Part shown: piece by piece, positions 3,232 to 63,800 of the stretch
Position numbering within the stretch: the stretch's first letter is position 1
Layout of the letters: the number at the start of each line of letters is the position of its first letter
NCBI GenBank assembly: GCA_947172415.1
Contig: OX359198.1
Location: forward strand, 7,272,401-7,336,400
Length of the DNA: 64,000 nt
Source of the DNA: Chondrosia reniformis
Taxonomy: Eukaryota; Porifera; Demospongiae; Chondrillida; Chondrillidae
Direction of reading: 5' to 3'
Made by a program: the position numbers and the translations under genes
Notes under the pieces: model-generated
The model's input: only the letters and a program-made list of their open reading frames with translations
Database searches by the model: none
Told to the model about the DNA's origin: nothing

Positions 3232-5796
3232 ATGATTAAAAGCATTATTCTCATAGGAGGACCGCAGAAAGGTATTCGCAATGGTTTTGTATTTGCAATT
3301 AATTTTTATTTTACTTTGCAAGCGATATTTGTTAATATTGAGCTATGCATTATGCGAATGTATATGTACGTAGAAATCCAGTCTAGTATACTAGATGCAG
3401 CAGTCCTTAATATACTGAAATGACGCCTAGTATAACTGTACTGAATTCTGTACTAGTGTGAAATTGTGCTATTTTTATGTTGTAGGAACCAGATTTAGAC
3501 CGCTCTCATTTCAAGTTCCAAAGCCATTGTTTCCTATTGCTGGATATCCTATGATCCAGCATCAGATAGAGGCGTGTCTAGAAATACCTGATTGCAGGGA
3601 GATACTCATTGTTGGTTACTACCAGCCTACACCTGAATTGAAGAGATTTGTACAAGCCATGTACCAGCAACACAACATATCATTAAGGTGAGGAACAGAA
3701 GCCATCATATGGTACCCATCCATCCATCCACCCATCCACCCATCCATCCACCCATCCACCCACTCCTTTGCAGGTATCTCCAGGAATATTCCCCTTTAGG
3801 AACTGCTGGAGGTTTGTATCATTTCAGAGATCAAATTCTGAGGGGAAATCCAAACTCTTTCTTTGTCTTCAATTCTGACGTTCACTGCGACTTTCCATTG
3901 CAAGAGATGCTCACATTTCATGAGGAAAAGACAAGTGGGCGTGGCCATGTCATCTTGGGGAGTGGTGCTAACTCCAAACAGGCTGGAAATTATGGTGTGA
4001 TTGGGCAAAATGAAGAAACGCAAGAGGTCTTGTATACTATAATGAGTTCTAGTATACTACATTGATATTTAGTATCCTAGAATGAGATCTGGTGTACAGT
4101 ATGGTAACGGAGTATAGTAAATATAAATGAGATTTACTGCTGTGAAACCTAGATTTACTGTTATAGAAGGCTGAGGATATAGAAGGATTTTTCCATCTCA
4201 TCTTTAGGTGATTCATTATGTTGAGAAACCGGAAACCTTTGTAAGCAATGTTATAAATGCTGGAGTGTACCTCTTCACTCCTGAGGTGTTCAAGGTGATT
4301 GGTGAGACCTTCCAGTCCAACCACGCTGACCTGGAGGACACTTCACTGAGGTCAGACTATATTCATCTTGAGAGAGACATTCTCCCCAAACTTGCTCGTT
4401 CTGGAACGTTCTTTGCTTACCAGCTCTCACAGGACAACAAGTGGTGCCAGATTAAAAATGGAGGGTGAGTGGTTGGCTTGACCAAGCGGCAAGTGAACTG
4501 TGTCTGCAAACATTCCTGTAGCTCTACTGTGTCTGTATTTGTAGTTCGGCTATTTATGCTAATCGACTGTATTTGAGACAATGGAGGAGAAAATATCCTG
4601 AAAGATTAGCTGTCAATGGTGATGGATTACCTGAAATTGTTGGTAAGCTGTTTATGTAAATCTATATATGTTTAATGTTATTTTACCATCCACTCACTTT
4701 CACTCTCCCTCTCCCTCTCACTTTCACACTCCCTCTCCCTCTCACTTTCACTCTCGCTCTCACTTTCACACTCCCTCTCCCTCTCCCTCTCACTTTCACT
4801 CTCCCTCTCCCTCTCACTTTCACACTCCCTCTCCCTCTCCCTCTCACTTTCACACTCCCTCTCCCTCTCACTTTCACTCTCCCTCCCCTCTCCCCTCCCT
4901 TTTCTACAATCAGGTGATGTCAGTATCCACCCCGGTGCTCAGATCCACCCAAGTGCCGTGCTGGGCCCAAATGTTTATATTGGCAATGGTGTAGCAATTG
5001 GTGCTGGGGCTAGGGTGAAGGAAAGTATAATTCTGGAGAGAGCTGAGCTAAAGGTATTTGCTTTTAGATGATATCAGCTGTTCTTCCTAGCCTTAAAACC
5101 AGTAGAGAAAGATAATTATTATAATTGCTCACTGGCAACCAATCCAGTAACCCCTCCCCCTCCCCCTCCCCCTAGGAGCACTGTTGTGTACTCCACTCAA
5201 TCATTGGTTGGGATTGCATAGTGGGGGCGTGGTCCAGAGTTGAGGGTTACCCTAGTGATCCTGATCCTAATGATCCACTGGGTAAGTCATACAGCCTACT
5301 CAATACCTGTCAGTCTGTGACAGCCTCTTCCCTATTACAGCTCTGGTTGCAAGTGACTCTCTTTTCAATGAGGAAGGCAGATTAAACCCGAGCATCACCA
5401 TTCTAGGTGAGTTGGTTTGTGTTGAGTGACTGTTATAGTCTAGGATACTTGTACTGTATGTAGGTGAAGGTGTGTCTGTGTGCTGTATGTAGGTGAAGGT
5501 GTGTCTGTGTGCTGTATGTAGGTGAAGGTGTGTCTGTGTGCTGTATGTAGGTGAAGGTGTGTCTGTGTGCTGTATGTAGGTGAAGGTGTGTCTGTGTGCT
5601 GTATGTAGGTGAAGGTGTGTCTGTGTGCTGTATGTAGGTGAAGGTGTGTCTGTGTGCTGTATGTAGGTGAAGGTGTGTCTGTGTGCTGTATGTAGGTGAA
5701 GGTGTGTCTGTGCTGGGAGAGCTAATGGTGTTGAATTCAATAGTCCTGCCACATAAGGAAATCAATTACAGCTTCAAGAACCAAATTATTCTTTAA
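3232..5796 (+). CDS. GMPPA: Mannose-1-phosphate guanylyltransferase alpha (GMPPA)
   Basis: Regulatory subunit of GDP-mannose pyrophosphorylase, cytosolic, acting in nucleotide-sugar supply for glycosylation. Nine exons: 3232-3271, 3486-3687, 3774-4026, 4208-4464, 4545-4642, 4914-5053, 5176-5281, 5341-5406, 5696-5796. They join in frame to exactly 420 residues, the length of human GMPPA. The N-terminal nucleotidyltransferase signature is [17 protein letters not shown], with the PQK insertion typical of the alpha subunit. A left-handed beta-helix of hexapeptide repeats follows ([19 protein letters not shown]). The C-terminus [20 protein letters not shown] aligns with the family end. An upstream in-frame Met at 3181 exists, but 3232 matches the family start. 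The donor of exon 3 (GTCTTG) is weak. The final acceptor is the last unit of a minisatellite. Confidence 0.95.
4680..4908 (+). repeat. CT-rich microsatellite/minisatellite filling GMPPA intron 5
   Basis: CTCCCTCTCACTTTCAC-type repeats occupy nearly all of the intron between exons 5 and 6 and run almost into the acceptor at 4913, so they double as a very long polypyrimidine tract. Long open frames here are repeat artefacts. Confidence 0.85.
5451..5710 (+). repeat. 29-bp minisatellite spanning the last GMPPA 3' splice site
   Basis: About nine copies of a 29-bp unit that starts GTGAAGGTGTGTCTGTG and ends TGTATGTAG. The last copy supplies the real acceptor (TGTAG at 5691-5695) and the first coding bases of exon 9. 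Every earlier copy carries the same AG|GTGAAGG junction. Confidence 0.9.
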
Positions 5797-7136: not shown

Positions 7137-7575
7137 TGTTGCAATCTGTATAGGAGCAGTCTTTATAGAGAGGTAGTCTCTATATAGGAGCAGTCTTTAT
7201 AGAGAGGTAGTCTCTGTATAGGAGCAGTCTTTATAGAGAGGTAGTCTCTGTGTAGGAGCAGTCTTTATGGAGAGGTAGTCTCTGTGTAGGAGCAGTCTTT
7301 ATAGAGAGGTAGTCTCTGTATAGGAGCAGTCTTTATAGAGAGGTAGTCTCTGTATAGGAGCAGTCTTTATAGAGAGGTAGTCTCTGTATAGGAGCAGTCT
7401 TTATAGAGAGGTAGTCTCTATATAGGAGCAGTCTTTATAGAGAGGTAGTCTCTGTGTAGGAGCAGTCTTTATAGAGAGGTAGTCTCTGTATAGGAGCAGT
7501 CTTTATAGAGAGGTAGTCTCTGTGTAGGAGCAGTCTTTATAGAGAGGTAGTCTCTGTGTAGGAGCAGTCTTTACT
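7137..7575 (+). repeat. 34-bp minisatellite in RAB5 5'-UTR intron
   Basis: About 12-13 near-identical copies of a 34-bp unit (TCTCTGTATAGGAGCAGTCT followed by TTATAGAGAGGTAG). Units with TCTCTATA carry a perfect 8-bp inverted repeat TCTCTATA/TATAGAGA, so the transcribed intron would contain a ladder of small hairpins. Each unit also contains AG|GTAG. Confidence 0.9.
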
Positions 7576-11568: not shown

Positions 11569-14500
11569 ATGCAGAATCAGTTTCTAATGGAGCATGTTAC
11601 CAAGAGCAAGCTAAAACACAGACTATTTGAGTGGTATAAGGAGTTATTGTTTTACGGGAAATATGTAGTAATTGTAACATTAATAGGATTCATCCTTTAT
11701 CGAGTAGTGGTCGTCAATTCTTCAGGTAATTGTTTATTGAGTTTCAAAATCGGTATTAAATGTGCTTAGTTATAATTGATTCGCAATATAAGATACTCGT
11801 TATTGTATTATGTATGTACTATGTATTACAGCTATGTTCGTGTGCCTATATGTATGTAGGGCATACAAGTTGTACTTCTATGGTGGCATCAGGGGAATGG
11901 GTGGAGTTTTCATGGACCACGCCCACATGCCTCATGGAAGAGTACACCTCTTCAGCTGAGTACGTGGACCAATCCAGGGGAATTGTACCAGTACTTGGGG
12001 TCCAATTAACTTATGATGCCATTTTTCTGTAGTTTAATGAAGACGTGTGTTTCTGCTGGTGTGCGTGTCTTGATGATTGGAAACAAGCACATGAGAGAAC
12101 TCTTTAGCGGTCTGATACACAGTCTTCAAGGCCACAGTCATAGCTTCTCTGTGGTTAGCCCCGCCCCATTGGCCATCTCATCACCATGGTGACCCCATTG
12201 ATACATAGGCCATCTCATCACCATGGTGACCCCATTGATACATAGGCCATATATTTACAGTAACCCCAGTGCTGTATAGGCCATCCTCGTGACTGTTACC
12301 ATCCATTCTGTGTGGAGATCAACTTGTATAGATTTTTTGTTTTTTTTTCTCTTTTTAAAGGGAGGCCAGGTACTTGAGCAGTTGTTGGACAGTGATTCCA
12401 AAATCAATGTTGTAAGTTATACTATACTCCACAGCATAATGCAACAATTTACCTTTTTTGGTTGCAACTGTAGTCATATTTAGAAGAGAGTGCAGTTCTC
12501 ATGGAAACGTTTAAAGCTTACCAAAGAGTACTGGAGGTAGTTAATTTGATGGGACAGGTAGTTTGTTTTGGATTGAAGTAGTCACTTGTTCTCTTTCTAT
12601 TAGGACAAGGATTGGTTGAAGAAGAAAATTATTATATTTCAAAATGGCTGCCCAGTAAGGTGTATTTTGTATCATCAGCATTTTTGTTATTTAGCACTGT
12701 ATTGTATGTGTTTATAGAGTGCATTAATCGAAGAAAAGGATGTACAACAGTTTAAGAGTGAGTTTACAACTCTATTATATAATGATTGAGTTTATAATAC
12801 CTGTGGATCAGATATTGTATGTCTATAATTATCAGGATAATTACGTACCAGAACAGAATTAGAGCACATTTACTTTTTCATCAAACACTTGTGACTTGTA
12901 ATGTATTCACAATGCGTTGTGTACTATAGAAAACATGACTAGACTGTTGCAAGTTCAAACACTGTTTCTTCGCAAAAGTAAGAAGTCAAAGGTTGTTTGG
13001 CTTCCTCAGAGCTCAGAGGATGTTGGAGCAGAAAGGACAAAGTGCAACCAAATTGCTGAAGAAATCTAGTATGCTCTTCTAAAACTGACACTTGACTCCA
13101 TTAACATATGTAGCTGTCACCAATATGCTTGTACAGTTCAGGAAATCAGGTGATATACTTGAAACCATTGGAAGATGTGGAAGGACAGTCTAGTGGAGTG
13201 TTGGAGAAACATAAAGCAATACTTCAGCAGGCAGTGAGTGCCATATTGTATGTTGACCTACGTAGGTCATGCTGTTTAGTTGATTTGTGCTACCTCCTAA
13301 AGAAACTGAATCTGGTGCTGAACACGTTCTGCAACGACTTGGCTCTTCAATCTAAAGGAACCTGCTGTGTCAGCAAACTGAGAAGTACTTTTACAAATGT
13401 TCTGGTCGGATTTCTTCTTTTAATGTGAGTGTGTAACCATGGTAACTGCAGTGATACAAAGGTGTATTTGTTTCCTTTGGTGTAGCGTGGCTTTCTATTT
13501 CGGAATGCAAATGATTATAGTCACCAATACTGTCAAAGGTACGTATACACATAGACCTCTTGAACCTGTTTCTCTTCCCTGGGTATCCTTCCATACGTAG
13601 ACCTCTTGAACCTGTTTCTCTTCCCTAGGTATCCTTACATACGTAGACCTCTTGAACCTGTTTCTCTTCCCTAGGTATCCTTACATACGTAGACCTCTTG
13701 AACCTGTTTCTCTTCCCTAGGTATCCTTCCATACGTAGACCTCTTGAACCTGTTTCTCTTCCCCAGGTATCCTTACATACGTAGACCTCTTGAACCTGTT
13801 TCTCTTCCCCAGGTATCCTTACATACGTAGACCTCTTGAACCTGTTTCTCTTCCCTAGGTATCCTTCCATACGTAGACCTCTTGAACCTGTTTCTCTTCC
13901 CTAGGTATCCTTACATACGTAGACCTCTTGAACCTGTTTCTCTTCCCTGGATATCCTTCCATACGTAGACCTCTTGAACCTGTTTCTCTTCCCCAGGTAT
14001 CCTTCCATTGTTGGGAGTGCAACTGCCAAAGGACCAGAAAGGTCTAGGTCAATATGCTGAGCACGCTGCCATAGTTCTGCCCAGTAAATTGGGAGTGATT
14101 GCTCTAACACTCGGATACATTATCATTATTGAGTGGTAGGCGGCTCCACGTTGGTCCATCTTAGAGCAAGATAAACCTGTGTCCATTTGTCTCCCTCTCC
14201 CTCTCAGTACTCAACTCTTTGTGGCTGGTAGATATAGATTAAATGAGCAGTACATTCAAATCACCTTGAGCCTTGTAGCTGTTCTGGGGTCCATTTTTAC
14301 CATCTCTTATACTGATGAGAAGGTATATGAGTACACCTCCTATTCCCTGCATGACATCGTGTACAGATGTGTTTCTTGTTGTCATAGGATACTGCTATGT
14401 CAAGAGAAATAGTTTCTGAAGGCAAAGGAATGTCAATCTCCATTCTTGTGCTGGTTGAACTACTGTTATTTGATCAAGTATGTTATATATATTTGATTAT

Positions 14501-60879: not shown

Positions 60880-63800
60880 TCAATGAGTTCCAACTATGGC
60901 AACCAGGCAACGCTTGTAGTCACCGGAACAGTCACCCTCGATCATCTTTGCCAAAGACTTTCCATATTCCTTCAAAAAGCATTCCTTTATCTGCACCATG
61001 TCAATCTGGGAAAGAAAGAGATAAAGAGTGTGAGTGTGGATGAATGTAGCAGGGGACAGTACATATCCCATGGATGCTGGAGCAGGATACCTGCCCCCTC
61101 CAAGGCTCACTGTGGAGTTTACCTGCCCCCTCCAAGGCTCACTGTGGAGTTTACCTGCCCCCTCCAAGGCTCACTGTGGAGTTTACCTGCCCCCTCCAAG
61201 GCTCACTGTGGAGTTTACCTGCCCCCTCCAAGGCTCACTGTGGAGTTTACCTGCCCCCTCCAAGGCTCACTGTGGAGTTTACCTGCCCCCTCCAAGGCTC
61301 ACTGTGGAGTTCACCTACCCCCTCCAAGGCTCACTGTGGAGTTTACCTGCCCCCTCCAAGGCTCACTGTGGAGTTTACCTGCCCCCTCCAAGGCTCACTG
61401 TGGAGTTTACCTACCCCCTCCGAGGCTCACTGTGGAGTTTACCTACCCCCTCCAAGGCTCACTGTGGAGTTTACCTGCCCCCTCTAAGGCTCACTGTGGA
61501 GTTTACCTGCCCCCTCCAAGGCTCACTGTGGAGTTTACCTGCCCCCTCCAAGGCTCACTGTGGAGTTTACCTGCCCCCTCCAAGGCTCACTGTGGAGTTT
61601 ACCTGCCCCCTCCAAGGCTCACTGTGGAGTTTACCCACATCAGGTCAAACAGAGACCCTGGCCCACGGGGAAGTGTTACATTGGGTTGCTTCTTGTGAGA
61701 TGTGTAGGAGTAAAACAACAGCATATGACCACTTACTTCACATCTCGAGACCACCAGTCTAACGAGGGTATCGTCATCTGTTCCGAGTCCTTTCATGCTG
61801 CGATAGAGTCTCTCGGCAAAGTAGGCAGGCCTGTTTTCCATGCTCCAGACTGCAACACACAATAGAAGAGGCAATCAGGATTTAGTGAATTAAGACAAGG
61901 AAAAACTTCAAGCATATGAATATACTACCCGTTTCATTAAAAGATAGATACATTTGGCTTACCAACAGCCTTCATAGCTTTCTTTATGTCCCCGGAGAAT
62001 TCTCTCTCAATAGAGTTAAGGATTGTTCTTTGGGAAATCTAGCACAGAAAGGTACGCCCATTGGAACAATATAAACCCACATCATCTGGTAATAGGTATA
62101 CCTTTGTGTACTCCTCAAAAGTGGCTTTGAGTTGGGCAAAGCTGCGACTTGAGACGATCCTGTTAAACTCTGATTCATCAGTTCCCCATTTGGCCTCCCC
62201 CGCCTGTGGTAGTACATGGAATATAATTAACCCACTTAAAACAAATTCATTATAATTATCTATTGAGCATGTAATTGGGGGAGTATTGCAGATATGGGGG
62301 ATCTGAACAGAAACCATTGCAAGTTTCAAACATGATCGTATTTAGTCTTGGCAGTCTCACATCAAAGAGTTTCTTAGCTTCTGCAGCTGCTTTGGCCTGA
62401 TCCACCTCTGGTCCTTCTGGTCTAGCAGCCTTAAAAGGAAAGAGAATGTGATTGGTCAATTCTTACAATGAGTGGCCAAATTGAGGAATCCCAGTCTCCT
62501 CCCAAATTGACACAGATCAGGTGAGAGGTAGTTGGGTCACATTCCACCTAGTTGTTTTAGGTATCTATGGAGACTGCACCAGATTAATTGACAAGGAACA
62601 TTACAGTACTACGACAAATTAGAGTACTTGACCCTGAGCAATCTAAAACACCATTTTCCTTCGTACTAGCAGCACCACCACATAGTATAAACCCTGAGGT
62701 ACATTTACTCATCTAGTCTCTCTCCATGTATATGTTAGCAGAATCTTAGATGGAGGTTGATGCATTAGATATCTCACTTGGAGACAGGAGACCAGAAGAC
62801 GACGGAAATGTCCGCTAGTTTCACTCATAACATCTTTTTCCAAATCACGTTTGAATTCTAATGGAAACAATTAAATCATTTCAACTTTTAGACTAATGAA
62901 AGGAATATTTGAAGTTTTCAATTTCAATGAAGATGCAGCCACTTCTACCACATCAGATCTCATACAATACCTACACTAATGTTTGACTATATATCTGATT
63001 CTTACCGCTTTTGTAGGCAGCAATGATGTCTGTGATTTCCTGCAAGTGTAAATGTGAAAACAGAAAACTGAATTGGCCTTATCTTAATAGTACTTGTATT
63101 TGATATCCAGAATACTTGAATCATGGATTGATGATCATTCTATACACTGGCAGCTTTAAATTGAAGCATATTAAAAATTAACCAATTTCAAGTCACTGTA
63201 ATCTTATTCTATTAAAAAAAAAAAGGTAGTGAATAAATCTTAGTGTCAGTTTCAAAACCAAAAACAAAGTTCTTATATATTAAATGGAAATCAAAACTAT
63301 ATACCTCTATTTCAATATATCAGTATGTAAAATTGCAGTTGCCAAATTCCAAATAACAAAGAAATAGTGATTCTGAAATTTGAAAGGCTTAAGTCAGTGA
63401 ATGTATGTCAAATACTGATGGTTTGCCATATTCAATACATAGCATACAATGTAGCATATAGAGTGGCAAGCAATTACCACAAGTGGACCTGAAGACCTAT
63501 CTTTGAAAGACTGCTAACCTGATTACTTCTTGGACAGATGACCTCAATCAGCACTTCCTCATCAGTCCCTACACCCTGCACATAGCATGGTCAAGGATCA
63601 GTCAACCTTGAAATCCTTTCACTAGCCACCTCAATGAGTGGAGGATTGTATAAAAATTACCTTCATTGCTCTCCTGAGACACTTGGCCAAGAAAACTGGC
63701 AGTGGGTCCATCATAGCTATCACCAGATTCTCAAAGTTTCCGCCCAATTCGCTCTTCAGATCCGAAATTAGATCCTATACGATTTGTCCATACAACTTAT

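Follow-up and report, generated by a model that had tools for sequence, protein, structure and literature searches.

A minisatellite across a predicted 3' splice junction in a CASD1-like gene of the sponge Chondrosia reniformis

What should be made of an intron that, as predicted, consists almost entirely of copies of its own 3' splice junction? Such an intron occurs in a stretch of 64,000 nucleotides from the demosponge Chondrosia reniformis (hereafter the window; G000:C10:7272401-7336400), part of a genome whose 15 contigs total 117,379,552 bases. The initial annotation had described it as a chain of GT...AG cassettes in a CASD1-like gene, the second in the window after one in GMPPA, and had suggested a recurrent mechanism, perhaps related to intron growth or to intron birth by tandem duplication of AG|GT sequence. 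In our view the array is probably a minisatellite, lying across a 3' splice junction by chance and of the 'mirage' kind described in amphioxus.

The array (13552..14008, forward strand) has a period of 46 bp, 9.9 copies and 96% matches (TRF score 837), and aligns as ten in-register units separated by nine intervals of exactly 46 bp. In junction register the unit reads GTATCCTT(A/C)CATACGTAGACCTCTTGAACCTGTTTCTCTTCCC(T/C)AG, and each unit comprises a pyrimidine tract, an acceptor position and 12 nt of exon, which bears out the claim that this gene holds tandem copies of a 3' splice junction. The copies are less uniform than had been stated. TAG or CAG, said to end every unit, is found at eight of the ten acceptor positions (TAG at five, CAG at three), with TGG in units 1 and 9; GTATCC, said to open every unit, follows nine junctions, and ATATCC follows unit 9. 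The 12 coding bases attributed to each unit are exact after junctions 1, 4, 7 and 10, the other six carrying a single-base change, namely A instead of C at exon position 9 (after junctions 2, 3, 5, 6 and 8) or A instead of G at exon position 1 (after unit 9). The junction of unit 1 (13581..13584, forward strand) has lost its acceptor (GG|GT) and that of unit 9 (13949..13952, forward strand) both acceptor and GT (GG|AT), while AG and GT are kept together at the remaining eight (2-8 and 10). Only four columns vary, all near the junction: -3 (T/C), -2 (A/G), +1 (G/A) and +9 (A/C). The ten-copy array is no chance feature.

That the gene is CASD1-like, as the initial annotation had it, is supported by its predicted product, which carries Cas1_AcylT (Pfam PF07779, E 1.1e-17; best stretch, residues 490-629 of the modelled protein). 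Our self-trained gene model places an exon at 13486..13538, an intron of 458 nt in phase 1 at 13539..13996, nearly all of it array, and a downstream exon at 13997..14135, all on the forward strand; the first 12 nt of this last exon (13997-14008) are the end of the array and are coding according to the model. This donor (13539) and this acceptor (13996, in the last unit) were obtained whether or not coding scores were zeroed inside arrays. Because no PDB chain matched the product at E 0.1 and its best Pfam stretch is downstream of the junction, the exact position given for the junction depends on frame and coding potential. When the acceptor positions were tried in turn, only the tenth (13996) kept the frame, which is open to the exon end, and all nine upstream positions, seven of them with AG, ran into a stop no more than about 64 residues after the upstream exon begins. 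Judged by frame and coding potential, the acceptor in use would be that at 13996. From the donor, the distance is 44 nt to the first in-register junction versus 458 nt to the last, in agreement with the earlier suggestion of intron growth. By score, the donor ranks at the 94th percentile of the 532 modelled donors, and acceptors with AG retained lie near the 75th percentile of the 532 modelled acceptors. The modelled introns (n = 532) have a median length of 127 nt, and their acceptor consensus is approximately TGYAG with a modest pyrimidine bias upstream.

Of the acceptor-array cases, that in GMPPA is the best established. Its array (5450..5712, forward strand; TRF) has a 29-bp unit, 9.1 copies and TGTAG|GTGAAG junctions, and runs 17 nt into the last coding exon. 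AG is present at all nine in-register positions; the full-length protein is obtained only from the ninth acceptor (5695), which keeps the frame, and each of the eight upstream acceptors leads to a premature stop. The product predicted from this last acceptor and human GMPPA align over their full length, junction included (7d72_A, E 5.6e-154). Here again the claim of a tandemly copied 3' splice junction stands.

For the CASD1-like gene, the history that we favour would begin with a short ancestral intron of about 44 nt. A tandem duplication would then have run from inside this intron to 12 nt into the next exon, taking in the last 34 nt of the intron and the first 12 nt of the exon, and further duplications, in this presumed order, would have brought the array to ten copies by unequal exchange or slippage. 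We propose that the gene has survived thanks to its outermost acceptor, which adjoins the exon, is intact and gives an open frame, the remainder being removed as intron. The cell would mostly join the first donor to the last acceptor, perhaps through exon definition from the 139-nt exon, and any use of an upstream acceptor might be cleared by nonsense-mediated decay (NMD) or by a further round of splicing that starts at the regenerated donor CAAAG|GTATCC. What speaks against the minisatellite reading is that in a genome with short introns the first good acceptor, not the last, would be expected to be used. In the locus L003, two copies of a 34-bp sequence take in an acceptor and 13 nt of a predicted exon that starts with TT, which looks like the first step of such array growth.

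Two such cases in one window had suggested a recurrent mechanism, and a comparison of arrays with splice sites against chance had been proposed. Arrays (period of at least 10, TRF score of at least 80, low-complexity sequence excluded) were compared with splice sites predicted by a home-made hidden Markov gene finder, with coding scores zeroed inside arrays. The finder was trained on, and applied to, the same 264 kb, made up of the window and 20 ten-kilobase stretches taken from a fixed grid on contigs C1 and C2 regardless of content; it may miss or misplace borders, and the masking of arrays may itself lower their overlap with exons. Tandem repeats make up 13.4% of the 264 kb, and the window alone gave 63 TRF rows. 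Among the 69 arrays of the 264 kb, an acceptor is contained in 4 and a donor in 7, against 18.8 and 18.9 on random placement. The deficit is seen both in the grid stretches (55 arrays; acceptor 1 and donor 3 versus 11.4 and 11.5 expected) and in the window (14 arrays; 3 and 4 versus 7.4 and 7.2). The four acceptor arrays are L003 and those starting at 5450, 7145 and 13552 of the window; that at 7145 (7145-7573; 34-bp unit, 12.6 copies), in which acceptor-like TATAG|GAGCAG and donor-like GAGAG|GTAGTC occur in every unit, is doubtful. Arrays thus steer clear of splice junctions, as they do of exons, although part of the depletion may come from the masking of arrays in the gene model.

A second comparison was confined to introns. 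With five further grid stretches from C3-C7 the sample came to 314 kb (0.27% of the genome) and 77 arrays, of which 41 are mostly intronic, and each of these was shifted to random positions in its own intron extended by 25 nt of exon. Intronic arrays reaching 5-25 nt past an acceptor number 3 (L003, L023 and the CASD1-like array) versus 4.5 expected, and the same sliding test gave 4 versus 4.5 for donors. GMPPA is absent from this acceptor count because the model split its array into false micro-exons, and adding it would raise the count from 3 to 4. Micro-exons modelled inside arrays, in GMPPA and likewise in L028, L030 and L035, are artefacts and were excluded as cases. An excess of arrays at splice sites is therefore rejected, both by this count and by the 4 versus 18.8 of the 264 kb. 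For this sample of 0.27% of the genome, and under a home-made gene model, the proposed comparison shows overlap that is not above chance, the outcome named beforehand as refuting the idea, and the claim of a special recurrent mechanism finds no support there; in a minisatellite-rich genome with short introns, acceptor-spanning arrays turn up at about the chance rate.

The third array of the sliding count lies at positions 578-744 of L023. It has a 31-bp unit and 5.4 copies and extends 5 nt into an exon with a match to DNA polymerase gamma (POLG; E 3.1e-8 against PDB chains), and the five upstream copies, each tried as acceptor, all led to a stop. Its anatomy, like that of L043 (below), resembles the CASD1-like case and speaks for the minisatellite reading. 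The exon starts AG|AA, with no GT, and AG|GT is thus not required for an acceptor-spanning array. Beside a modelled, putative donor in the window lies a further array (61088-61635, minus strand), which has a 32-bp unit and 17.1 copies and extends 13 nt past the donor; a GT...AG reading of these units is possible as well.

The strongest competitor of the minisatellite reading, unlikely as we judge it, is that the array works as a ladder for recursive splicing. Each AG|GT would be dual-specific, so that whichever acceptor is used first regenerates a donor that removes the next unit; growth by whole units would then be neutral, and AG|GT arrays would be the ones that survive at acceptors. The eight CASD1-like junctions that keep both AG and GT fit this idea, and so do GMPPA and L043, which are of like form. 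One 46-nt unit is a possible intron length, since 34 of the 532 modelled introns are 46 nt or shorter, and dual-specific AGGT sites are known in human tandem repeats (PMC10809524). The sequence of the regenerated donor (CAAAG|GTATCC; 34th percentile among modelled donors) would permit reuse, but it is hardly distinctive: 9.4% of all GT dinucleotides in the window match or exceed its score, and the donors that follow TAG units reach, in place, only the 10th percentile. Also against the ladder, AG has been lost at two of the ten junctions, and neither of the two acceptor-spanning arrays of the grid sample has an exon starting with GT (L003, TT; L023, AA).

Whether AG|GT is special can be asked of the whole genome. 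A pattern in which three AG|GT sites follow one another at distances of 20-50 nt, with a pyrimidine tract before the second and before the third, matched 1417 times, versus 392 for the reversed pattern; the same pattern with AG|GA matched 875 times versus 363 reversed, though GA is the commoner exon start at modelled acceptors outside arrays (74 of 480, versus 45, or 9.4%, with GT). AG|GT arrays may thus be over-represented, with an excess of matches about twofold that of AG|GA, in counts that weigh long arrays heavily and do not demonstrate splicing. This moderate excess is not explained by chance crossing alone, which counts against the minisatellite reading, and part of the recurrent-mechanism idea may still hold. 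The AG|GT matches listed, from C1 to C2:7.64 Mb, comprise by our visual count 18 tandem clusters and 2 non-tandem matches, and 17 of these 18 clusters were read (L027-L043), the one at C1:9491544, whose unit is as in L037, being left out. Among the 17, one (L043) clearly spans a modelled acceptor and two are in-frame coding repeats (L028 and L029, the latter with a 30-bp repeat); in L038 (RIC1) the array is most of an intron, the true acceptor lying, by eye, just beyond it; and none of the others could be placed on an acceptor of the right strand. The coding repeat of L028 (1014-1531; 42 bp, 12.3 copies) reads by eye in frame as 14 residues (HDSPDDLSPPRRGR-like), and we take it to be BUD13-like. 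One 44-bp unit occurs at C1:9478475, 9485030 and 9491544 and one 55-bp unit at C2:719827 and 1222763, so that some minisatellite units are dispersed.

L043 (G000:C2:7638000-7640700, minus strand) is a candidate ladder, a 32-bp array of 27 copies in which all 27 in-register junctions are AG|GT. It precedes a modelled exon of a kinase-like gene, the first 10 nt of this exon lying inside the array, and all 26 upstream acceptors lead to stops in the assumed frame. Later exons of the gene model, not the exon adjoining the array, match Pkinase (residues 75-154, E 3.1e-7, 30.5 bits versus a cut-off of 31.7); the adjoining exon presumably resembles the glycine-rich start of NAK-type kinases. Across much of the array the units alternate between GTGGC and GTATC, giving a higher-order period of 64 bp. 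The invariance of AG|GT was considered as a sign of selection and rejected: 5 of the 32 columns vary and none of the 4 core columns, as would often occur by chance (P 0.49), so that this invariance is uninformative. Having been found by an AG|GT search, L043 is likewise uninformative on the share of AG|GT among acceptor arrays. The broader proposition, that acceptor-spanning AG|GT...AG|GT arrays are true ladders of minimal introns removed successively, with growth by units costless, seems to us less likely again than the ladder in the CASD1-like gene.

A regulatory role is improbable. The array would be kept because graded choice among its acceptors diverts a share of CASD1 transcripts to NMD, and indeed every upstream acceptor position leads to a stop and those with AG lie, as noted, near the 75th percentile. 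Against this, the strength of acceptors on the sense and antisense strands is alike in the 41 intronic arrays (7 versus 6 arrays at or above the median acceptor; Wilcoxon P 0.62). Acceptors in arrays therefore look neither favoured nor avoided, and the same figures lead us to reject the idea that introns avoid acceptor-like units on their sense strand.

More improbable still is the birth of the intron by tandem duplication of an exonic AG|GT segment (the Rogers model) with later amplification. The intron length of 458 nt is close to ten units (460), and AG|GT stands at both the donor and the acceptor junction. The first 13 nt of the intron, however, are no closer to the unit than shuffled sequences are (P 0.24), 77 of the 532 modelled intron starts do equally well, and by eye the flanking exons are unlike the intronic part of the unit. 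On this point the suggestion of intron birth finds no support in the CASD1-like gene. That the unit is an introner-like mobile element is barely credible: GT...AG-bounded units do occur in two genes within one window, but the units of GMPPA and L043 differ in sequence, and there is no sign of a mobile introner since the CASD1-like array matches the genome once, in a search that skips very common words.

With 8 near-identical AG acceptors in the CASD1-like gene, 9 in GMPPA and 27 in L043, all but one must be passed over or spliced through for an open frame. Such loci bear on how the spliceosome chooses among equal acceptors, on recursive splicing as a possible buffer of intron growth and on the lengthening of introns. 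If the ladder were true, introns could grow by whole units without cost, and L043 would hold 27 such junctions.

The open-access literature on sponges contained, among the matches listed, no paper on arrays spanning splice junctions, which is no proof of absence. Several known systems are nevertheless comparable. The human dual-specific sites in tandem repeats (UBC, VCX3A; 77 introns; PMC10809524) share with the CASD1-like array the repetition of AGGT at unit boundaries. An intron of the UBC type is a multiple of the unit, and the CASD1-like intron is 2 nt short of ten units; unlike in the UBC type, its first donor has a different sequence and its units are not coding. In human duplicated genes, internal tandem repeats also cross exon-intron borders and their copy number alters the intron, but they are described as forming novel introns (PMC2812944), whereas the CASD1-like intron would have been pre-existing and grown. 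Tandem duplication and AG|GT borders are also common to the intron gain by tandem genomic duplication in the potato RdRp gene (PMC4974935); in contrast to that case, there is no sign that the CASD1-like intron was created by duplication, its donor side not being a copy of the unit by the shuffle comparison above.

The closest likeness is to the amphioxus mirages, which PMC3087553 describes as minisatellite-like duplications of intron-exon boundaries with AG/GT in many, though not all, units. Their units measure 150-160 bp in the globin gene BflGb6, 157 bp in BflGb9 and 10-72 bp in Adh3; RT-PCR suggests regular splicing, and two haplotypes have 6 and 3 units. The CASD1-like case differs in being from a sponge, in other genes, with a 46-bp unit, and known here from one assembled sequence. 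It is similar in that the minisatellite spans an exon-intron boundary, ending 12 nt inside the exon according to the gene model, and in that its units mostly keep AG (8/10) and GT (9/10). Judged by its sequence and the gene model, the array thus shares with the mirages the two features that can be assessed at this level, the spanning of the boundary and the partial retention of AG/GT, and it extends to a sponge a phenomenon known from amphioxus and, in part, from human.
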